DNA from: Sorangium aterium
GTDB lineage: Bacteria > Myxococcota_A > Polyangia > Polyangiales > Polyangiaceae
Assembly (NCBI RefSeq): GCF_028368935.1
Contig: NZ_JAQNDK010000001.1
Location: 3,348,001-3,412,000, forward strand
Length of the DNA stretch: 64,000 nucleotides
Direction of reading: 5' to 3'
The position numbers and the translations under genes are program-made. Positions 34,865-44,890 of this stretch are shown here, piece after piece. Under the pieces are notes generated by a model that was not told where the DNA came from, did not search any database, and worked only from the letters and a program-made list of their open reading frames with translations. Each line of letters begins with the position of its first letter. The stretch's first letter is position 1.

Positions 34865-37306
34865 TCAGCCCATCTCGATCTCGACGCGCACCGTCGAGCC
34901 GGCCGGCGACAGGGGAATCACGTTCCCCGCGACGGTCTTGCCGTCCACGGTCAGCTTCTTCACGCCCTTGCACACCCCCGAGTTCTTGACGCTGATCTCG
35001 TAGGTGGCGCCGCGGAAGCGGCGGGAGATGGAGAAGCTCTTCCACGCCTTGGGCACGCAGGGATCGAGCTTCAGCCCGTCGTACTGGGGCTGCACGCCGA
35101 GGATCCCCTGGCTCACGGACACGAACGTCCAGGCCGCCGTGCCGGTGAGCCAGGCATTCTTGGCTTCACCGAAGACCGGGGCGTCCTTGCCAGCGATCAT
35201 CTGCGCATAGACGTAGGGCTCGGCGCGATAGGTCTCGATCTGGCTCTCCTTCGCCGAGGGGCAGATGGAGAGATAGTACTCCAGCGCGCGCTCCCCTTCG
35301 CCGAGGAGACACCAGCCGAGGTGGATCCAGGTGTTGTTGTGGCAGAAGATGCCCGCGTTCTCCTTCACGCCCGGCGGATACGAGGTCACCTCACCGAGCT
35401 CGAGGTGATAGGTCGTGTACGCGGGCTGCTGCAGCACGATGCCGTTCTTCGTGTAGAGGTGCTTGTGCACGCTCTCCATCGCCTGCTTGGCGCGGCCGTT
35501 GTCCGCGCCGGCGCCGCCTAGGACGCACCAGCCCTGGCTCTCGATGAAGATCTTCCCCTCCTCGTTCTCCTTGCTCCCGACCGGCCGGCTCTCGGCGTCG
35601 TAGGCGCGGCGGTACCACTCGCCGTCCCAGGCCTCCTTCTCGATGACGGCCAGCATCTCCGCGTACTGCTCACGCATGCGCGCAGCGTCGGACTTCTGGC
35701 CCATCCAGTCGTACAGGGCCGCCATCTCGCGGCTGGCATAGAGGAAGAGGCCGGCGATCATCACGGACTCGGCCTTCGAGTCCTTCACGTCGCCCGCGGT
35801 CTGGAAGCTCTCGTTGGGCTCGGTGCTGAAACAGTTCAGGTTGAGGCAGTCGTTCCAGTCCGCGTGGCCGATCAGCGGCAGGCCGTGCGGGCCCCGCTTC
35901 TTCATCGTGTAGGCGATGGACGTCTCGAGGTGGTGAAGGAGGTCCTCCTTCGAGCCCGGCTTGTCGGCGTAGCCCACAGCCTCCTTGAGGATGGCCTTGT
36001 CGCCGGTCTCCTTGATGTACGCGCACGTGGAGAGGATCAGCCACAGGTGATCATCGTAGAAGTCGCCGCCGATGTCGGCGTTCCCCTTCTTCGTCAGCGG
36101 CTGGTACTGGTGGTAGCAGGTGCCGTCGCTGAGCTGGGTGGCGGCGATGTCGAGGATGCGCTGGCGGGCGCGCTCGGGGACGAGGTGCACGAAGCCCAGG
36201 AGATCCTGGTTCGAGTCGCGGAAGCCCATGCCCCGGCCGATGCCGGTCTCGTACATGCTGGCCGACCGAGAGAGGTTGAAGGTCGCCATGCACTGGTACT
36301 GATTCCAGGTGTTGAGCATGCGTGTCGCGTGCTCGTCCGGGCAGTCGGCCTGGAAGTTCGAGAGGATCCCGGCCCAGTCCGACTTCAGCTGGGCGAACGC
36401 GCCGTCCACGACGCCGGGCGCCGAGTACTTGGCGAGGATCTCCTTGCCCTTCTGCTTGTTCAGGACGAAGGGCGCCTTGAACTTGGGCAGGTCCCCGTGG
36501 TCCACGTACGAGAGCACGAAGCTCATCGTCTCGCTCGCGCCGGGCTCGAGCGAGAGGCTCACCTGGTGGCTGCCGATCGGGTTCCAGCCGAACGCCTTGG
36601 AGTTCGTGGCCTTCCCCTTGGCCGGCACCTGGGCCTCGTGGAGGCCGTGGTGGACGCTGCCGCAGAAGGCGTCACGGCTCGTGTCGAACCCGTCGATCGC
36701 GCGCGTGCAGGCGAAGAGCGTGTAATGGGAGCGGCGCTCGCGGAACTCGGTCTTGTGATAGATGGCGCTCCCCTCGATCTCCACCTCGCCGATGGAGTAG
36801 GTGCGCTGGTAGTTCGTCATGTCGTTGAGCGCCTCGAAGAAGCAGAACTCCTGAAAGGAGAAGAGCTGGATGTCCTTCTTCGAGCCGCTCTTGTTGGTGA
36901 CCCGGGTGCGCCAGATCTCCACGTTCTCGCCGGGAACGATGAAGAAGAGGACCTCCACCTCGACGCCGTTCTTCTCGCCCGTGATCTTCGTGTAGCCCAG
37001 GCCGTGGCGGCACTCGTAGCGATCCAGAGCCGTCTTGAGGGGCTTCCACATGGGGTTCCACACGACCCCGCCGTCGTTCACGTACAGGTAGCGCCCGCCG
37101 AGGTCCATCGGCACGTTGTTGTACCGGTAGCGCGTCAACCGGCGCAGCTTGGCGTCCTTCCAGAACGTGTAGCCGCCGGCCGTGTTGGTGCAGAGGCCGA
37201 ACATCTCGTCCGAGCCCAGGTAGTTGAGCCAGGGCAGCGGCGTGTCGGGCCGGGTGATGACGTACTCGCGGCTCTCGTCGTCGAAGTGGCCGTACTGATT
37301 GCTCAT
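34865..37306 (-). CDS. GH94 cellobiose/cellodextrin phosphorylase
   Basis: 813 residues, matching the 810-820 of cellobiose phosphorylases. Phosphorolysis of cellobiose gives glucose 1-phosphate and glucose, saving ATP during cellulose use. N-terminal beta domain: YGHFDDESREYVITRPDTPL, LPWLNYLGSDEMFGLCTNTA, GGYTFWKDAKLRRLTRYRYN. The (alpha/alpha)6 catalytic domain contains YETGIGRGMGFRDSNQDLLG, the general acid Asp486 in HADWNDCLNLN, and KENAGIFCHNNTWIHLGWCL near the phosphate site. No signal peptide: cytosolic, requiring cellobiose uptake. Cellodextrin or chitobiose phosphorylase are alternatives within GH94. Preceded by a promoter and an attenuator-like leader. Start ATG has GGAG 11 bases upstream. 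Confidence 0.92.
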   Translation of the reverse strand: MSNQYGHFDDESREYVITRPDTPLPWLNYLGSDEMFGLCTNTAGGYTFWKDAKLRRLTRYRYNNVPMDLGGRYLYVNDGGVVWNPMWKPLKTALDRYECRHGLGYTKITGEKNGVEVEVLFFIVPGENVEIWRTRVTNKSGSKKDIQLFSFQEFCFFEALNDMTNYQRTYSIGEVEIEGSAIYHKTEFRERRSHYTLFACTRAIDGFDTSRDAFCGSVHHGLHEAQVPAKGKATNSKAFGWNPIGSHQVSLSLEPGASETMSFVLSYVDHGDLPKFKAPFVLNKQKGKEILAKYSAPGVVDGAFAQLKSDWAGILSNFQADCPDEHATRMLNTWNQYQCMATFNLSRSASMYETGIGRGMGFRDSNQDLLGFVHLVPERARQRILDIAATQLSDGTCYHQYQPLTKKGNADIGGDFYDDHLWLILSTCAYIKETGDKAILKEAVGYADKPGSKEDLLHHLETSIAYTMKKRGPHGLPLIGHADWNDCLNLNCFSTEPNESFQTAGDVKDSKAESVMIAGLFLYASREMAALYDWMGQKSDAARMREQYAEMLAVIEKEAWDGEWYRRAYDAESRPVGSKENEEGKIFIESQGWCVLGGAGADNGRAKQAMESVHKHLYTKNGIVLQQPAYTTYHLELGEVTSYPPGVKENAGIFCHNNTWIHLGWCLLGEGERALEYYLSICPSAKESQIETYRAEPYVYAQMIAGKDAPVFGEAKNAWLTGTAAWTFVSVSQGILGVQPQYDGLKLDPCVPKAWKSFSISRRFRGATYEISVKNSGVCKGVKKLTVDGKTVAGNVIPLSPAGSTVRVEIEMG

Positions 37307-37416
37307 GGACGCGCGGTCTCCGTGGATAGCGACAGAAAAAAACCCGGAGGCAGCGCTGCCCCGGGTCGGATAAGCCGATGATTGTCAGGCCTGGGGCCTC
37401 CGAGCGAGCTCAGAGG
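37307..37416 (-). promoter_or_regulatory. Attenuator-like 5' leader of cellobiose phosphorylase
   Basis: Predicted transcript start near 37416. Helix 1 (37397-37416) pairs CCTCTGAGC with GCTCGGAGG at the 5' end. The intrinsic terminator follows at 37336-37366. CTCGGAGGC (37396-37404) can instead pair over 9 base pairs with GCCTCCGGG (37343-37351), the 3' arm of the terminator, so helix 1 plus terminator and the alternative helix are mutually exclusive. The leader has no ATG, GTG or TTG, so control by a leader peptide is unlikely; a protein, ligand or RNA trigger would be needed. Confidence 0.55.
37336..37366 (-). terminator. Intrinsic terminator inside the cellobiose phosphorylase leader
   Basis: Minus strand: ACCCGG and GGCAGC pair with GCTGCC and CCGGGT (37342-37366; about 12 base pairs, one bulge), followed by seven T. 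It ends only 29 bases before the ATG at 37306, yet lies downstream of the gene's sigma-70-type promoter. It could also end the upstream aldo/keto reductase transcript. Confidence 0.75.
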
Positions 37417-37422
37417 GTCGCC

Positions 37423-37452
37423 ACTCTAGACCCCGGCGCCTCCGCTTGTCAA
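37423..37452 (-). promoter_or_regulatory. Sigma-70-type promoter of cellobiose phosphorylase
   Basis: Minus strand: perfect -35 TTGACA (37447-37452), 18-base spacer, -10 TAGAGT (37423-37428). It is the best promoter match in the window. Predicted start near 37416. Confidence 0.7.
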
Positions 37453-37500
37453 CGGGGCCTGGGGGCGCGCTCGCCGGCGTTTTGCCAGGGAGAACGCCGC

Positions 37501-37530
37501 GCTCCGTCGCGCTCCGTCGCGCTCCGTCGC
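37501..37530. repeat. Three exact tandem 10-mers upstream of the GH94 promoter
   Basis: gctccgtcgc repeated three times without interruption. The centre lies about 65 bases upstream of the -35. A 10-base period places the copies on one face of the helix, as for activator or repressor binding sites. An AT-rich patch (37593-37604) lies further upstream. Confidence 0.65.
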
Positions 37531-37655
37531 GCCGTGTTGCGCGTTGGCGCATGGTTGGTGTGCGGCAGACAACGCAGGATTGCAGTGAAGGAGAAATTTT
37601 ACACACCGAAGCTCCGCGGGCCTCGACTCGCTCGCGGAGCCGCGTATCCGCCGCT

Positions 37656-38627
37656 TCAACCGGCCTTGAACGTGTCGTAACGGCCGGCGCGCGGCGCGAC
37701 GCGCGCCTCCAGCGCTGCGCGCTCCGCGGGCGGCATCGGGAAGGAGAGGGATCGCGCGCCCAGGTTCTCGCGCACCTCGGCGATCGACGAGCAGCCGATG
37801 ATCACCGTGTCGGCGTGGCTCGCCGCGTAGTGGATGAGCTCGCTCGCGCTCGCGGCGCGATCCTGGAGCAGGCGGCCCGCGGCCATGATCTTCATGCCGA
37901 TGACGCCGACTCCGCGCCGCCGCGCCTCCTCGACAACGGTCGTCAGGAACGGTCGCCGCGCCGGATCTGCGGGGTTTACCGCGCAGAGCACGGTGTCCAC
38001 AGGATACCGCCGCATCGCCTCCAGGAGGATCCGCGGGTCGTGGTGGCCGGTGATCCCGACGTGGCGCACGCGGCCGTCCGCCCTGGCCTGCTCCACGGCC
38101 TCGATGGCGCCCCGCTTGCCGAAGATGGCGTCGAGCTCCTCGATCTCCCGCAGATCGTGCAGCTGCCATAAATCGAGGTGGTCTGTCCCGAGCCGACGCA
38201 GGCTGTCGTCGAGCAGCCGCAGCGCGCCGTCGCGATCGCGCGCATGGGTCTTGGAGGCGAGGAAGACCTGCTCGCGCGCCTTCGGGCCGGCGGCGCGGAA
38301 GGCCTCACCGTAGTAGTCCTGGCTCTGCTGGTATGCAGGCGCGGTGTCGCAGTACCTGACCCCGAGGCGCAGGGCCTCCAGGATCACGGGCACCGCCTCG
38401 CGGTGACGGCCCGTCGTGCGGAGGATCCCCTCGCCCCCGAGCGACACCGGCTCCACCTGCGCGCCGGTCCGCCCGAGCGTGCGGGCCGGCCCCCCGGCGG
38501 CCGCAGGCGCCGCCGGCGACGGGCGGCCGGCTACCCCGACCGCCACGGCCGCTGCGGTCGTGGCGACCGCTCCCAGCACGCCACGATGGCCGCCGTCGGC
38601 AACTCCCGTCTCGCTCGGCTCGCGCAT
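37656..38627 (-). CDS. Aldo/keto reductase family protein with exported-type N-terminus
   Basis: 323 residues from ATG 38625-38627 (AGGAGG 6 bases upstream; TTTACG-17-TAGAGT promoter). The N-terminal 50 residues include a hydrophobic stretch (GVLGAVATTAAAVAVGVAG) and a Pro/Ala linker, unusual for this cytosolic family. The barrel follows: VEPVSLGGEGILRTTGR, the catalytic Asp and Tyr in YCDTAPAYQQSQDYYG, Lys in FLASKTHARDRDGALR, and His in LWQLHDLREIEELD. C-terminal VGVIGMKIMAAGRLLQ and DTVIIGCSSIAEVREN match the NADPH-binding side of AKR-like oxidoreductases. Substrate unknown. Confidence 0.86.
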   Translation of the reverse strand: MREPSETGVADGGHRGVLGAVATTAAAVAVGVAGRPSPAAPAAAGGPARTLGRTGAQVEPVSLGGEGILRTTGRHREAVPVILEALRLGVRYCDTAPAYQQSQDYYGEAFRAAGPKAREQVFLASKTHARDRDGALRLLDDSLRRLGTDHLDLWQLHDLREIEELDAIFGKRGAIEAVEQARADGRVRHVGITGHHDPRILLEAMRRYPVDTVLCAVNPADPARRPFLTTVVEEARRRGVGVIGMKIMAAGRLLQDRAASASELIHYAASHADTVIIGCSSIAEVRENLGARSLSFPMPPAERAALEARVAPRAGRYDTFKAG

Positions 38628-38644
38628 AGGGCCTCCTGGGGACA

Positions 38645-38673
38645 ACTCTATCAACCGAAGGGTCACACGTAAA
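38645..38673 (-). promoter_or_regulatory. Promoter of aldo/keto reductase gene
   Basis: Minus strand: TTTACG (38668-38673), spacer 17, TAGAGT (38645-38650). The predicted start near 38638 leaves an 11-base leader that just contains the AGGAGG Shine-Dalgarno. Confidence 0.55.
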
Positions 38674-38790
38674 CCGGGGGCAGGATCCATGCAGTCACGG
38701 CTCCGGCGACCGGTCCCACGCGTCGGTGCGCTGCTGCGTGGGCAGCAATCGTGGGGCCTCGTGTTGCTATGGCACGACGCGGACGCTACA

Positions 38791-38849
38791 AGCGGGCTCA
38801 CAGCTTCTGCGCGAGCGACACGGCTGTCGCTCTCCGCTGGCGGCCCGCT
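38791..38849 (+). promoter_or_regulatory. Structured leader upstream of metNIQ
   Basis: Three nested helices on the plus strand: AGCGGGC/GCCCGCT (38791-38797 with 38843-38849), CAGC/GCTG (38801-38804 with 38836-38839) and GAGCGACA/TGTCGCTC (38813-38820 with 38825-38832, loop CGGC). It lies 43 bases before the metN GTG. It does not match a SAM or SAH riboswitch that I know. A -10-like TGC-TATGGC is at 38763-38771. Confidence 0.4.
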
Positions 38850-38891
38850 CCCGGAGACTGCTGCGGGGCGGGCGGGAGGTGGTCATCGGCC

Positions 38892-39902
38892 GTGATCGAG
38901 CTGCGTGACGTCAGCAAGGTGTACCGGCACGGCGGGCGCGAGGTGACGGCGCTGGAGGGCGTCTCCTTGCGCGTGGCCCCGGGCGAGGTGTTCGGGGTGC
39001 TGGGGCACAGCGGCGCGGGCAAATCCACCCTCATCCGCTGCGTCAACCTGCTTGAGCGGCCCACCGCGGGCGAGGTGAAGGTCGAGGGACGGGACATGCT
39101 GGCGCTCGGCCCGCGGGAGCTCCGGCAGGCCCGCCAGGGCATCGGCATGATCTTCCAGCACTTCAATCTCTTCTCTGCGCAAACCGTGGCGGAGAACATC
39201 GCCTATCCGCTGGCCATCGCGGGCTGGCCGCCGGGACGCATCCGCGAGCGGGTGGATGAGCTCCTCTCGCTTGTCGACCTCTCGGACAAGGCGTGGGCCT
39301 ACCCGGCCCAGCTGTCCGGCGGCCAGAAGCAGCGGGTGGGGATCGCCCGGGCGCTCGCGCCGCGGCCGCGCGTGCTGCTGTCCGACGAGGCCACCTCCGC
39401 GCTCGACCCGGAGACGACACGCGCGGTGCTCGGCCTGCTGCGGGACATCAACCGGCAGCTGGGGCTCACCATCCTGCTCATCACCCACCAGACGGAGGTG
39501 CTCAAGGAGATCTGCCGCTCGGCGGCCGTGCTGGAGCGTGGCCGCGTGGTCGAGCAAGGCAAGGTCATCGACCTGCTCGCGCTCCCCGGCGCACGCTTGA
39601 GCGCGCTGTGTTATCCGCCGTTCACCGCGGGCAGCTGGTCTGTCCGCCCCGGAGGCCGCCCCGGAGGCCGCCTCGTCTGCCTGTCCCTCGCCGGGGACGC
39701 TGCCGCTCAGCCGGTATTCGCCGTGCTGGCGCGCCGCTTCGGCGTGGACGCCACCCTGCTCGAAGGCACGGTGGAGCGGGTTGGAGGCGTCCCGGTGGGC
39801 CGGCTCTTGGTCGAGCTCACCGGCGCCCCCGACGCGCTGGAGCAGGCGCTGAGCCACCTGCGCGAGCAGCGTTGTCTGTCGGAGGCCGTCGCCCATGCCT
39901 AG
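38892..39902 (+). CDS. metN: Methionine ABC transporter ATP-binding protein
   Basis: 336 residues from GTG 38892 (GGGAGG 12 bases upstream). ATPase of the MetNIQ importer for methionine and related amino acids. Walker A GHSGAGKST, Q-loop MIFQHFNLF, signature LSGGQKQRVGIARAL, Walker B VLLSDEATSALDP and switch His in LLITHQTEV are all intact. The C-terminal domain (about 250-336, VFAVLARRFGVDATLLEGTV, VGRLLVELTG) is the NIL/ACT-like domain that in E. coli MetN senses methionine for transinhibition. The gene overlaps metI by 8 bases. Confidence 0.93.
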   Translation: MIELRDVSKVYRHGGREVTALEGVSLRVAPGEVFGVLGHSGAGKSTLIRCVNLLERPTAGEVKVEGRDMLALGPRELRQARQGIGMIFQHFNLFSAQTVAENIAYPLAIAGWPPGRIRERVDELLSLVDLSDKAWAYPAQLSGGQKQRVGIARALAPRPRVLLSDEATSALDPETTRAVLGLLRDINRQLGLTILLITHQTEVLKEICRSAAVLERGRVVEQGKVIDLLALPGARLSALCYPPFTAGSWSVRPGGRPGGRLVCLSLAGDAAAQPVFAVLARRFGVDATLLEGTVERVGGVPVGRLLVELTGAPDALEQALSHLREQRCLSEAVAHA

Positions 39903-40575
39903 CGAGCTCGTGGCGTCGCTGTGGATAGCCACCGTCGAGACGCTCTACATGGCGTCGGTCTCCGCGATCCTGGTCGTGCTCGCCGGGCTCCCGCTCGGCG
40001 TGCTGCTGGTGATCACCGACCGCGGCGGGCTCTGGGAGCGGCCGCTGGTCAACCGCTCGCTCGGCACGCTCGTGAACGTGGGGCGCTCCGTGCCGTTCAT
40101 CATCCTCATGGTGGCCATCGTGCCGCTCACCCGGCTCCTCGTCGGCACCACCATCGGCACCACGGCCGCCATCGTGCCGCTGGTCGTCGCTGCGATCCCG
40201 TTCATGGGGCGCGTCGTGGAGCAGAGCTTGCGGGAGGTCGACCCCGGGCTCCTGGAGGCGGCGGTGGCGATGGGCTCCACCCACCGGCAGGTGATCCTCC
40301 GGGTGCTCCTGCCCGAGGCGCTGCCGTCCCTCGTGCGCGGCACGGCGCTCATGGTGATCAGCGTGCTCGGATACAGCGCCATGGCGGGCGCCGTGGGCGG
40401 CGGCGGCCTCGGCGACCTGGCGGTGAAATACGGTTACATGCGCTTTCGCACGGATGTGATGCTGGGCTGTCTCGTCGTGCTCCTCGTGCTGGTGCAAGGC
40501 GTCCAGCTGCTCGGGGACCGCCTCGCCTCCCGGCTCGACCGCACGAGCCCCCGGGGCGCCGGCGCCCGCGATTGA
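39895..40575 (+). CDS. metI: Methionine ABC transporter permease
   Basis: 226 residues with five hydrophobic segments, matching MetI. The cytoplasmic coupling loop reads VEQSLREVDPGLLEAAVAMG followed by STHRQVILRVLLPEALPSLV, the EAA motif that docks MetN. The gene overlaps the end of metN by 8 bases and is followed after 60 bases by metQ. Inner membrane. Confidence 0.94.
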   Translation: MPSELVASLWIATVETLYMASVSAILVVLAGLPLGVLLVITDRGGLWERPLVNRSLGTLVNVGRSVPFIILMVAIVPLTRLLVGTTIGTTAAIVPLVVAAIPFMGRVVEQSLREVDPGLLEAAVAMGSTHRQVILRVLLPEALPSLVRGTALMVISVLGYSAMAGAVGGGGLGDLAVKYGYMRFRTDVMLGCLVVLLVLVQGVQLLGDRLASRLDRTSPRGAGARD

Positions 40576-40635
40576 CCCTGTTCCAGCGGCCTGGCCCGCG
40601 CCGCCTCGCCCCATGAACCCTCCGGAGGACTGACC

Positions 40636-41466
40636 ATGAAGGGAACCCCAGCGATCGTTGTCTCAGCGCTCCTGCTCTCGGTGACGGCGCTGCTCTCCAG
40701 CTGCGGTAAGCCGGACGAACCTGCCGGCGCCGGCGGCAGCCGCACCTTGAAGGTCGGCGCCACCCCCGTGCCGCACGCGGAGATCCTCCGGGCGGCCGCG
40801 CCGCTGGCCGAGCGGGAGGGTGTGAAGATCGAGGTGGTCGAGTTCACCGACTACATCCAGCCGAACATCGCGCTTTCGGACGGCCAGCTCGGCGCCAATT
40901 ACTTCCAGCACGTGCCCTACCTGGAGCGCTTCAGCGCCGATCGCCGGCTCTCGCTGAGCAGCGCGGCGGCCGTGCACCTCGAGCCGCTGGCCCTTTACTC
41001 CACCAAGCACGCTCGCCTCGAGGACCTGCCCGAGGCAGCGCAGGTGACGATCCCGGCCGACCCGACCAACGGGAGCCGGGCCCTCCAGCTCCTGGCCCAG
41101 CACGGGCTCTTGCGCCTCCGCGAGGGGGTGGGGGTCGCCGCGACCGTGAAGGACGTGCTCGACAGCCCGCGCAAGCTCGCGCTGCGCGAGATCGACGCCG
41201 AGCAGCAGCCGCGCACGCTGGCGGACGTCGACGCCGCCGTCATCAACGGCAACTACTTCCTCGAGGCGCAGAAGAACCTGAAGCTGGACGCGAAGGTGCT
41301 CGCCCGCGAGTCCGCCAAGGGCAACCCGTACGCGAACGTGCTGCCGGTGCGGAAGGGCGATGAGACGCGGCCCGAGGTGCAGGCGTTGATCAAGGCGCTG
41401 CACTCCGACGACGTGCGGCGCTTCATCGAGTCCCACTACGGCGGCGCGGTGGTGCCGGCGTTCTGA
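40636..41466 (+). CDS. metQ: Methionine-binding lipoprotein (NlpA family)
   Basis: 276 residues; CCGGAGGA Shine-Dalgarno. Signal peptide with lipobox LLSSC. NlpA/MetQ signatures: LKVGATPVPHAEILRAAAPL, VVEFTDYIQPNIALSDGQLG ANYFQHVPYL, IPADPTNGSRALQLLAQHGL, and DVDAAVINGNYFLEAQKNL. Captures methionine outside the inner membrane and delivers it to MetNI. Last gene of the operon, followed by a hairpin at 41471-41534. Confidence 0.94.
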   Translation: MKGTPAIVVSALLLSVTALLSSCGKPDEPAGAGGSRTLKVGATPVPHAEILRAAAPLAEREGVKIEVVEFTDYIQPNIALSDGQLGANYFQHVPYLERFSADRRLSLSSAAAVHLEPLALYSTKHARLEDLPEAAQVTIPADPTNGSRALQLLAQHGLLRLREGVGVAATVKDVLDSPRKLALREIDAEQQPRTLADVDAAVINGNYFLEAQKNLKLDAKVLARESAKGNPYANVLPVRKGDETRPEVQALIKALHSDDVRRFIESHYGGAVVPAF

Positions 41467-41470
41467 GGTG

Positions 41471-41534
41471 GGCGCGCGCCGGCCGACGCTCCAGGGCGAG
41501 CGCTACCGGCTACCGGTCGGGCCGGGCGCGCGCC
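41471..41534. terminator. Hairpin between metQ and the AraC-family gene
   Basis: ggcgcgcgccggcc (41471-41484) pairs with ggccgggcgcgcgcc (41520-41534) with one extra base. The roughly 35-base loop holds a small taccgg repeat. The right arm lies within the 3' end of the AraC-family gene. No T-tract. Confidence 0.4.
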
Positions 41535-42442
41535 TTGCGCCGGTAGGCGCCCGGGGTCTCGCCCATGTGGCGCCTGAAGGCCTTCACGAACGCGCCGTCG
41601 GTGGCGTACCCCACGGCGCCCGCCACCGACGCCATGCTCGCGGCCTCGTCGGCGAGCATCTCGGCGGCGCGGTGCATGCGCCAGCGCGTCAGGTACTCGA
41701 GCGGAGCGACGCCGAGCGCCCCCTTGAAGCGTGCGGCGAAGGCCGAGCGCGACACGCCCGCGGCGCGCGCGAGCGCCTCGACCGTCCACGGGTCGGCGGG
41801 CCGCTCGTGCATCCGCTGCAAGGCGACGCCGAGGGAGGGGTCCCAGAGCGCTCGAAGCCAGCCCGGTTGCTCGCACGTGACGCCCGCGACATGGGTGCGC
41901 AGCGCCTGCACGAACAGCACGTCGGCCAGGCGGCCCGCGACGAGCTCGTAGCCGGGCATCTCCGCGTCCATCTCGGCGGCGACGAACTGCAATGTCGACT
42001 CGATCCACCGCGTCGCGACGCCGCCGTCGCCCTGCACGTGAATGAGCTCGGGCAGGCTCGCGAGGAGCGGGTTCAGGCGCGCGTCGGTGAAGTGAAGGCC
42101 GCCCGCGACGATCGTCGTCGGCGCCCCATCGCCGCCGTAGTGCACGATGCCCCCGCATCGGCCCCCGCGCTGCGCATACACCACCTCGGGCGAGACGGCG
42201 CGCGAGCCGGGGCGGTCGCGCAGCGCATGCGCGAGCCGGGCGCGCAAGAAGACGACGTCGCCGGGCGCCAGCGTCAGGCGGCGCCCGCCCGCGTCGAGCA
42301 CGCAGCCGCCCCGCGAGAGCGCGTAAAACGTCGTCACGTCGTGCGCGTCGATCCGCATGCCCCAGGGCGCCTTCAGCTCGAGCCGACCGTAGATCTGGCT
42401 CTGCAGCTGGACGCTGCGGAGCGCCTCCGTCAGGACGTCCAT
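41510..42442 (-). CDS. AraC-family transcriptional regulator with cupin_6 domain
   Basis: 310 residues from ATG 42440-42442 (GAGAGGAAG upstream). The N-terminal cupin (residues about 15-190) includes YGRLELKAPWGMRID, AGGRRLTLAPGDVVFL and GGRCGGIVHYGGDGAPTTIV. The C-terminal AraC DNA-binding domain has two helix-turn-helix units: WTVEALARAAGVSRSAFAARFK and MASVAGAVGYATDGAFVKAFRR, followed by HMGETPGAYRR. Divergent from the NmrA-like gene, with which such regulators are usually paired; it probably controls both. Confidence 0.92.
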   Translation of the reverse strand: MDVLTEALRSVQLQSQIYGRLELKAPWGMRIDAHDVTTFYALSRGGCVLDAGGRRLTLAPGDVVFLRARLAHALRDRPGSRAVSPEVVYAQRGGRCGGIVHYGGDGAPTTIVAGGLHFTDARLNPLLASLPELIHVQGDGGVATRWIESTLQFVAAEMDAEMPGYELVAGRLADVLFVQALRTHVAGVTCEQPGWLRALWDPSLGVALQRMHERPADPWTVEALARAAGVSRSAFAARFKGALGVAPLEYLTRWRMHRAAEMLADEAASMASVAGAVGYATDGAFVKAFRRHMGETPGAYRRKARARPDR

Positions 42443-42455
42443 GCATCTTCCTCTC

Positions 42456-42484
42456 TGGACGATCGAACCATTTCTATGGACGAT
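42456..42484. promoter_or_regulatory. Direct repeats, candidate AraC-family operator
   Basis: TGGACGAT occurs at 42456-42463 and 42477-42484, start to start 21 bases (two helical turns). This is the geometry of AraC-family half-sites. They lie just upstream of the regulator's own start and about 100 bases before the NmrA-like gene. Confidence 0.55.
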
Positions 42485-42584
42485 ACAGCGCTGTTCGTCT
42501 CTTCGCGAGCCCTTATCGTGGAGCGCGTGGGGGCCGGCGCTGCGGCGCCACGGGGCCGACCCACGCGCGAAGGGAGACCCAGTC

Positions 42585-43481
42585 ATGACCACGAAGGAGA
42601 GGCTCGTCCTCGTCACCGGAGCTACCGGACAGCAGGGCGGCGGCGCGGCGCGAGCGCTGCTGTCGCGCGGCGTTCGCGTCCGTGCTCTCGTCAGAAATCC
42701 CCAGGGAGAGCCCGCCGCGGCGCTGCGCCGGCTCGGGGCAGAGGTCGTGGGCGGCGACCTGGGCGACCGCGCCTCGCTCGAGGCCGCGGCCCGGGGGGCG
42801 GACGCCGTCTTCAGCGTGCAGCCGAGCGAGGGGCAACCGCAGTACGGCGTCACGTCGGAGGACGAGGCGCGCTTCGGCAAGAACGTCGCCGACGCCGCGC
42901 GCGCGGCGAGGGTCCGGCACCTTGTGTACACCTCGATGGCCGGCCTCGAGCCGGGCACGGGAGTCGGCCACTTCGAGAGCAAGTGGCAGATCGAGACGTA
43001 CGTTCGCTCGCTCGACGTGCCCTTCACCATCCTGCGCCCGGGGGCGTTCTTCGAGCTGCTCACCCAGCCGCAGTTCTACGCGGCGCCGGGGAAGTTCACG
43101 TTCTTCTACCCGCCGGAGCACCGTATCCCCTTCATCGCGGCCGAGGACATCGGCGCGATCGCGGCCGCGGTCCTCGCGGCGCCCGACGCCTTCGCAGGCC
43201 GAACCCTCGAGCTCGGCGGCGACGTGCTCACCGGCGTCGAGACGGCGGCCGCGCTCGGGCGCGCGACGGGGCAGCCGCTCGCCTATGCGCGCTTTCCGGC
43301 CGAGGCCCTGCGCGAAAATACCCTGTTCGAGCGCATCGTCGAGGCCGCGCTCAAGCTCCGCGTCGACATCGACGTCGCCTCGCTCCGCGCGCTTCACCCG
43401 ACGCTGAAGACGCTCGCGACCTGGCTCGAAGAAGGGGGCGCCGCGCGCATTCCCGTCACGTCGCGCAGCGGCGCGCAATGA
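42585..43481 (+). CDS. NmrA-like NAD(P)-binding protein
   Basis: 298 residues; AGGGAG upstream of the ATG. Atypical short-chain dehydrogenase of the NmrA/HSCARG type: VLVTGATGQQGGGAARALL (GxxGxxG), VRALVRNPQGE, GAEVVGGDLGDRASLEAAA, VRHLVYTSMAGLEP and FTILRPGAFFELLTQP. Catalytic Tyr and Lys of classical SDRs are not in place, so it may be a redox-sensing or quinone-reducing member. Divergent from, and probably regulated by, the AraC-family gene. Confidence 0.88.
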   Translation: MTTKERLVLVTGATGQQGGGAARALLSRGVRVRALVRNPQGEPAAALRRLGAEVVGGDLGDRASLEAAARGADAVFSVQPSEGQPQYGVTSEDEARFGKNVADAARAARVRHLVYTSMAGLEPGTGVGHFESKWQIETYVRSLDVPFTILRPGAFFELLTQPQFYAAPGKFTFFYPPEHRIPFIAAEDIGAIAAAVLAAPDAFAGRTLELGGDVLTGVETAAALGRATGQPLAYARFPAEALRENTLFERIVEAALKLRVDIDVASLRALHPTLKTLATWLEEGGAARIPVTSRSGAQ

Positions 43482-43583
43482 GCATCGGGCCTCGGTAGGG
43501 CCGAGCTCGGCGGGCCAATGATCCGGCCGCCCACGGCCTCAGGGACGAGCCTTGGGCACCCGGAAATAGCCCTCAGTCCCTCG

Positions 43584-44369
43584 CTACCACCGGTCGTCGG
43601 AGTCGTCGTCGTCCGACCCCCTGCCCCGATCGTCGTCCTCGAACACCAGCCTTCCAATCACCACCTGGCGCACCGCCGCGGGATAATAGGCCGTGACGGC
43701 GGCCGTGCTCCAGGTGTGCCCGACGATGGTGTCCGAGGTGTTCGTATAGAGCCGCATCGTCCCGTAGCCGGCGCCGGAGGCCCCCCGGCCGCTCGACGCG
43801 TACCTGGAGTCGGACGAGCCGTGGTGCGTGCTCGTCGAGTCGACGATGCTCACCTCGAACTGGAATGTGCCCGCGACGAGGGGGCTGACGGGTAGCTTCG
43901 CCCTCGGCGCCCGGCGGAGGATCGCGACGTGCCCGGTCGACGACTCGCCAGCGGGGTAGCGGATGGCGATGATGTCGGCGGCGCGCGCGTCCCTGGGGTC
44001 GTGGATCCTCTTGAATCCATTCTCCTCGACGATGGCGTCGTAGTAGGCGGCCGCGCTCGGGCTCCGGCTGCCCAGCCAGTCGTTCAGCGATGCTTCGGTG
44101 AACCCGTAGCCCCGCTTGAGCAGCTCGGTCAGGAAGGTGGCGCACTGCGTCCGGTTCGCGTAGCGGCGCGCGCCGGCCACGCCAGCCCAGCTGATGAAGC
44201 TGGGGCTCGAGTTGTATTCGTTGTTCTCCGAGCTGACGTTGTCCACGAGGCTCTCCGCCCACCTGAGATGGTCGACGTGATGCGCAGCCGCGGTGCGCGG
44301 CGAAATCCACACGAGCCCCGGAAGGACGAGACAAGCGATCTCCAGCATACGACGACGAACGCTCGCCAT
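43584..44369 (-). CDS. Secreted protein with Cys/His (NlpC/CHAP-like) domain
   Basis: 261 residues from ATG 44367-44369 (AAGGTGG upstream). The signal peptide ends near RTAAAHH. The mature region has Cys in RTQCATFLTELLKRGYGFTE and, about 80 residues later, His in GESSTGHVAILRRAP, an order and spacing that fit an NlpC/P60- or CHAP-like cysteine amidase. C-terminal to that are beta-rich segments (TFQFEVSIVDSTSTHHGSSD, GYGTMRLYTNTSDTIVGHTW) and an acidic tail (FEDDDRGRGSDDDDSDD). Wall hydrolase activity is inferred; no family-specific motif settles it. Confidence 0.66.
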   Translation of the reverse strand: MASVRRRMLEIACLVLPGLVWISPRTAAAHHVDHLRWAESLVDNVSSENNEYNSSPSFISWAGVAGARRYANRTQCATFLTELLKRGYGFTEASLNDWLGSRSPSAAAYYDAIVEENGFKRIHDPRDARAADIIAIRYPAGESSTGHVAILRRAPRAKLPVSPLVAGTFQFEVSIVDSTSTHHGSSDSRYASSGRGASGAGYGTMRLYTNTSDTIVGHTWSTAAVTAYYPAAVRQVVIGRLVFEDDDRGRGSDDDDSDDRW

Positions 44370-44890
44370 GATCCACCTTGGAATGCAATGAGTTGCTCGA
44401 ACTGGCGCGTCGCACTCAGCGCGCGGATTCCCGTGATGTATTAAGTACGATCGAGAGGCGCCGTTCAATACAAATTTGCAGCACAATCATCTTTGGGAGT
44501 CGCTTGTCCCACAGGCGCACAGACGGACAGGCATCCTCTCGCGCCGTGCGCCTCGCGGGGCGGACGGTGACGCGATAGCCAGCGCGGCGCGGGTGAGCTG
44601 CGCGAGGACGGAAGGAAGGGCGACGAGCGTAATGGGGGCAACGAGCGAAGCCGAGGCAACCGACGTGACCGACGTAACCAACGCGACCAACAACCAGCGG
44701 GCCAGTGCGCCGTAACCCCGCGACAAACCGGGGCACGCGCTTGCGTCGATCGAAATCGGTCGATTTCGAATGAGTGGCTGTGTTAACCTGGCCTGTTGTT
44801 CCGAGGCCCGGGTGGCCCAGGAGAAGGCTCGGGGAGGGGCGTGTCGGACCTGGAGCGACGGGCAGGCGGCCTCGGTCGGCCGCCAGCCGG
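44370..44890. other. 520-base intergenic region with a dyad
   Basis: No supported gene. 44650-44700 contains degenerate 9-base repeats (gtgaccgac, gtaaccaac, gcgaccaac). A near-perfect palindrome, TCGAAATCG-gt-CGATTTCGA, is at 44750-44769, in a locally AT-rich patch about 120 bases downstream of the OmpA-type gene. It could be an operator. Confidence 0.45.

Follow-up and report, generated by a model that had tools for sequence, protein, structure and literature searches.

The window analysed here, a 64,000-nucleotide stretch of Sorangium aterium DNA, encodes a predicted GH94 cellobiose phosphorylase of 813 amino acids on its minus strand (34865..37306). This assignment draws on matches to Pfam PF17167 and PF06165 and on sequence comparison with solved structures, the closest of which are cellobiose phosphorylases aligning over their full length (3qde, 1070 bits, versus 457 bits for a chitobiose phosphorylase structure). 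Members of Sorangium are myxobacteria that break down cellulose and have very large genomes; the window genome measures 13.5 Mb. Four of its five genus mates carry the GH94 gene at 95-97% identity; the sixth genome, G002 (89% complete), gave no GH94 match and short partial matches to the leader described below only. We note that the window protein is 69-77% identical to genes from MAGs labelled Verrucomicrobiota, Spirochaetaceae, Deltaproteobacteria and others, while the best identity among family members outside the genus with a close homologue is 54-58%. The non-genus genes come from a contig search that returned genes of at most 77% identity, the close genus apparently not being part of the searched set. 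This pattern of identities suggests horizontal transfer.

In all four relatives that carry the gene, the order is amidohydrolase, GH94, a hypothetical gene, an OmpA-like gene and an Hsp70-like gene, the last two named by reading rather than by family search; the G005 contig ends inside the Hsp70-like gene. The hypothetical gene (43584-44486 in the window) has no NCBIfam match. In the window genome only, a block of ∼6 kb (about 37607-43624) that is absent at this place in the four relatives separates it from the GH94 leader, with borders at 37465-37606 and 43605-43646, depending on the relative aligned. The block holds an aldo/keto reductase (identified by Pfam) and an ABC transporter ATPase with an NIL domain, among others, and by reading we also recognized further genes of methionine-type transporter, AraC-like and NmrA-like kinds. 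Three tandem copies of GCTCCGTCGC lie at 37501-37530, upstream of the leader and near the block border in the window genome. In each of the five genomes the gene upstream of the leader lies on the strand of the leader; that gene is a different one in the window genome than in the relatives, and the leader is the same.

The region between this upstream gene and GH94 opens with a sigma-70-like promoter on the minus strand (37423..37452). As the original prediction had it, TTGACA lies at 37452-37447 and TAGAGT at 37428-37423, separated by an 18-base spacer. It is the only sigma-70-like match between 34.5 and 39.5 kb (shuffled sequences gave a mean of 0.3), and the hexamers and their spacing are identical in all five leaders, with 14 of the 18 spacer columns variable and the spacing of 18 fixed. 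RNA polymerase would be expected to start some 6 to 8 bases past TAGAGT, near 37415-37417.

An intrinsic terminator follows at 37336..37367 (minus strand), consisting of a hairpin at 37367-37341 and seven T at 37342-37336, with 29 bases leading on to the ATG at 37306. Its position is as originally described, and so is the presence of a stem, though not the 12-bp length given for it: we count 10 to 11 pairs with one bulged U. The hairpin is predicted at −15 to −21 kcal/mol across the five genomes and the T7 tract is invariant, while one terminator pair is A·C in G003. Neither a simple terminator scan (4 terminator-like sites in 5 kb versus 1.6 in shuffles) nor the folding energy of the 114-nt leader (no better than shuffles; z of −1.05, 30 of 200 as good) is telling, so the case rests on comparison between genomes and on how seldom T runs occur. 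Two runs of at least six T occur in the 64 kb, and only that of the GH94 leader has a single hairpin at or below −12 kcal/mol; in each of the four relatives' regions (12.6 to 19 kb), the terminator is likewise the only such hairpin. Among 16 other T7 sites of the window genome, six have a hairpin at or below −15 kcal/mol under a loose rule, all of them longer or inside open reading frames, and two match the terminator in stability (−18.6 and −18.9 kcal/mol), which makes the terminator unusual rather than unique. The motif of four G/C followed by T7 shows no clear enrichment, with 89 matches in six genomes versus 76 in a reversed control and 7 to 28 matches per genome (G004 alone, 28 versus 15 in the control).

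With the upstream gene on the strand of the leader in every one of the five genomes, the hairpin could be nothing more than the 3′ terminator of that gene, which is the aldo/keto reductase in the window genome and the hypothetical gene in relatives; for the aldo/keto reductase, this is the alternative that the original prediction had offered. We consider it very unlikely. The aldo/keto reductase is not at this place in any of the four relatives that have the leader, and the terminator therefore did not arise to serve that gene; moreover, the conserved promoter separates the terminator from the upstream gene, and the two hairpins that precede the terminator in the leader are conserved as well.

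In the window genome 29 nt separate the T7 tract from the ATG, and relatives have 76 to 87 nt at this point. A separate full promoter would not fit into 29 nt, which leaves a promoter overlapping the terminator as the remaining possible route to GH94 around it. Just past the T tract lies an invariant CTGTC (37331..37335, minus strand, in the alignment of five leaders), and directly before the ATG is a conserved ribosome-binding block, CACGGAGACCGCGCGTCC (37307..37324, minus strand), which is exact in three of the four relatives and has one base deleted in G005. We observe that both are kept while the spacer between them (within 37307-37335) varies in length, and that G001 and G003 have a second TTCTGTC copy. 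In the window genome, UUUCUGU is predicted to pair with ACGGAGA and so mask the ribosome site, and G003 has a similar prediction by way of its second TTCTGTC copy. The remaining three genomes give none, and for this reason we do not claim masking.

Between promoter and terminator, two further hairpins are predicted. The first, H1, is an 8-bp hairpin at the predicted RNA 5′ end (37397..37416, minus strand) with the sequence CCUCUGAG-CUCG-CUCGGAGG, and its eight pairs are the same in all five genomes. Four genomes could form two more outer pairs, and one of these pairs is lost in the window genome. Together with one preceding C and the following CCCCA, H1 forms a block in which 25 of 26 columns are invariant among the five genomes, the sole change giving the loop CUUG. 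In the GH94 gene, 196 of 360 fourfold sites are invariant; under that rate the H1 block has a p value of 3e-6, for a block picked after the alignment had been inspected. The CCCCA (37392..37396, minus strand) is invariant in all five leaders, and its A doubles as the first base of the 5′ arm of H2, a 5-bp hairpin (AGGCC...GGCUU, 11-nt loop; 37372..37392, minus strand). The H2 stem is kept, with one base deleted in G005, and only 2 of its 11 loop columns are invariant.

Across the RNA, 5 of 51 paired columns are variable compared with 18 of 32 unpaired columns (Fisher p of 7.6e-6), a test that uses few sequences and a structure derived from the same five related genomes. The contrast comes mostly from H2 and the linkers (1 of 10 versus 13 of 16, p of 0.0008); H1 alone (1 of 19 versus 1 of 6) and the terminator alone (3 of 22 versus 4 of 10) show no significant stem-loop difference. 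No covarying pairs were found among the five leaders, in which no pair had changed on both sides, and because the stems hardly vary a pair-count shuffle control was uninformative. We aligned the upstream regions of four other genes in the same manner, with some relatives' starts set by offset and one relative omitted for the hypothetical gene. Only short conserved stretches are seen ahead of the amidohydrolase, OmpA-like and Hsp70-like genes, and about 70 columns upstream of the hypothetical gene are moderately conserved (four genomes, of which three are relatives).

The full unit of promoter, H1, H2 and terminator with T7 is kept in five of six Sorangium genomes, where it invariably sits immediately before GH94 and in the order promoter, intrinsic terminator, GH94 start codon. 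Each of the five has one full copy among the matches listed, from a search that scored no more than 40 candidates in each genome. Other leader matches in the genus begin at an E value of 0.01, again among those listed; the six further matches that we inspected span 20 to 27 bases and do not show the promoter-hairpin-terminator order. A leader search of 183 genomes of the order at an E value of 0.001 recovered the five genus genomes only and none of the other 177. A covariance model run with strict filters on 377 genomes of the phylum (11 candidates scored per genome) returned the window genome and four weak matches (E values of 0.01 to 0.08) that resemble generic T6-T7 terminators. By model search the leader was not found at 27 other GH94 loci either, so that its conservation rests on one genus. 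In the leaders of 19 GH94 relatives with 61-77% identity, folds ahead of runs of at least four T do not go below −11.4 kcal/mol; two of the 19 offered fewer than 300 nt upstream. Rfam gave no match at gathering score anywhere in the window, and none of the titles or abstract openings covered by our literature searches reports this leader. What the comparison establishes is a conserved promoter, conserved hairpins and a conserved terminator between promoter and gene, present once in each genome and linked to GH94.

The leader is enclosed by promoter and terminator, with GH94 coming next, so transcripts from this promoter or from farther upstream must pass the terminator, and such obligatory read-through is the geometry of an attenuator. 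The original prediction of an attenuator is supported in this respect, in the conservation of promoter, leader and terminator and in the lack of a plausible leader peptide; its specific switch is not. No leader-peptide start had been expected, and the window leader indeed has no ATG, GTG or TTG. The same is true of four of the five leaders, the exception being a single TTG in the H1 loop of G004, and a short open reading frame with a start codon before the terminator, which is the mark of leader-peptide attenuators, was not found.

The switch that had been proposed would have the segment 37396-37404 pair with the 3′ arm of the terminator as an antiterminator, with H1 acting as the anti-antiterminator. 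In the window sequence, CTCGGAGGC (37404-37396) is complementary to GCCTCCGGG (37351-37343) over nine pairs, one of them U-G, as had been stated, and nine pairs are possible in G000, G001 and G003. An A·G mismatch interrupts the helix in G004 and G005, however, and forcing it costs 8.2 kcal/mol in G000, 18.8 in G004, 16.7 in G005, 13.3 in G001 and 9.1 in G003 relative to the hairpin fold. The structures had been described as mutually exclusive, but the minimum-energy fold contains H1, H2 and the terminator together in each of the five genomes. Failure of the pairing to be conserved in relatives had been named in advance as what would refute the prediction, and the pairing is broken in two of five leaders and covaries in none. 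The helix would, in addition, capture the terminator arm that is transcribed last. We find this switch scarcely credible, and a simple competing-helix switch of the kind first proposed is not supported.

An antiterminator on the 5′ arm of the terminator, pairing GCCCC with GGGGC, was also considered and rejected: it is 8.5 to 14.1 kcal/mol worse, and for the window sequence the nascent pairing is not above that of shuffles (222 of 500 upstream shuffles score at least as high). When nascent RNA from any of the five genomes is folded to the end of the 5′ arm, GGGC or GGGGC pairs with GCCC or GCCCC farther upstream, and this modelled pairing might possibly form a transient antiterminator. Naville and Gautheret (2010, PMC2965389) describe predicted premature-terminator attenuators by a Rho-independent terminator between the promoter and the first start codon. 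Like these, the GH94 leader has a Rho-independent terminator in that position; unlike the attenuators with two alternative structures treated in the main text of PMC2965389, it yielded no conserved alternative antiterminator structure in our searches. "Sorangium" is not mentioned in that main text. Factor-dependent attenuators may need no alternative antiterminator.

The dyad CCTCTGAGCT/CGCTCGGAGG that encodes H1 spans approximately +1 to +20, and H1 could instead be mainly a DNA operator bound by a repressor, with the terminator dampening expression by a fixed fraction. An operator over the transcription start is in the classical position for a repressor, the dyad sits over the predicted start site, and the sequence of H1 is itself conserved. 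At least three GH94 relatives (L064, L069 and L071) appear by eye to be preceded by the beginning of a divergently oriented LacI-like gene. On the other side, no regulator was found among the shared neighbors queried, and an operator alone leaves unexplained why the H2 stem is kept while its loop varies. With up to two mismatches the dyad has 143 matches in the six genomes versus 161 for a reversed control, and it is exact only at the GH94 leader; on this count a regulon of H1 operators is rejected. We therefore regard a mainly operator role for H1 as fairly unlikely.

We attach similarly modest weight to the idea that the terminated RNA of ∼80 nt is a functional sRNA acting in trans, with GH94 expressed from read-through transcripts. 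There is a precedent in UpsM, the leader of the dcw cluster in Rhodobacter sphaeroides, where termination is reported to generate an sRNA and read-through the mRNA (PMC5089854). UpsM resembles the GH94 leader in having a 5′ UTR terminator conserved within one bacterial group, and differs in its 268-nt UTR and in the RNase E- and Hfq-dependent cleavage reported there (PMC5089854). The Sorangium leader has its own promoter and terminator and a three-hairpin, sRNA-like shape, and its best sub-threshold Rfam match is a full-length match to the sRNA family anti-hemB; this match scores 19.3 bits, though, far under the family's gathering threshold of 49.5. Its single-stranded parts, apart from the CCCC and the T tract, are the least conserved, and full copies occur beside GH94 only among the matches listed, both of which speak against a role in trans.

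We favor a premature-termination (attenuation) leader of the Sorangium GH94 gene, a proposal that we hold to be evenly balanced between right and wrong. GH94 expression probably needs terminator read-through. Under the attenuation reading, an RNA of ∼80 nt would fold successively into H1, H2 and the terminator, most transcripts would by default end at T7, and GH94 would be made by read-through only, which would be conditional. H1, fixed in both sequence and pairing, may be the site where a trans-acting factor lowers termination, and a protein would be a more likely factor than a metabolite or an RNA. In BglG/LicT antitermination, beta-glucoside genes are controlled through terminator read-through, and the proposed GH94 leader would be alike in placing beta-glucoside use under read-through control. 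It is unlike that system in that the BglG-type RNA-binding domain (CAT_RBD) was found in none of the six genus genomes, versus 4 of 14 control genomes. A search for ANTAR proteins gave 0 of 6 genus genomes and likewise 0 of 14 controls, and a second NusG-family match was found in G004 only. We offer as a rather doubtful extension that an antiterminator protein which binds RNA, or else a sugar or sugar phosphate acting directly, reads the invariant 5′ hairpin, coupling cellobiose phosphorolysis to cellulose use in a genus-specific manner and with no competing-helix switch.

Control through a terminator in the leader is already known as a kind, and the Sorangium GH94 case would be a further, genus-restricted example; the leader is a strong candidate for an attenuator and does not amount to a mechanism. 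If the conserved terminator does gate GH94, then phosphorolytic cellobiose use in Sorangium would be controlled at the RNA level, while by eye a repressor gene seems to take this role in some of the enzyme's relatives. As T7 after four G/C is rare in these genomes, a preserved copy is a good entry to antitermination in myxobacteria.
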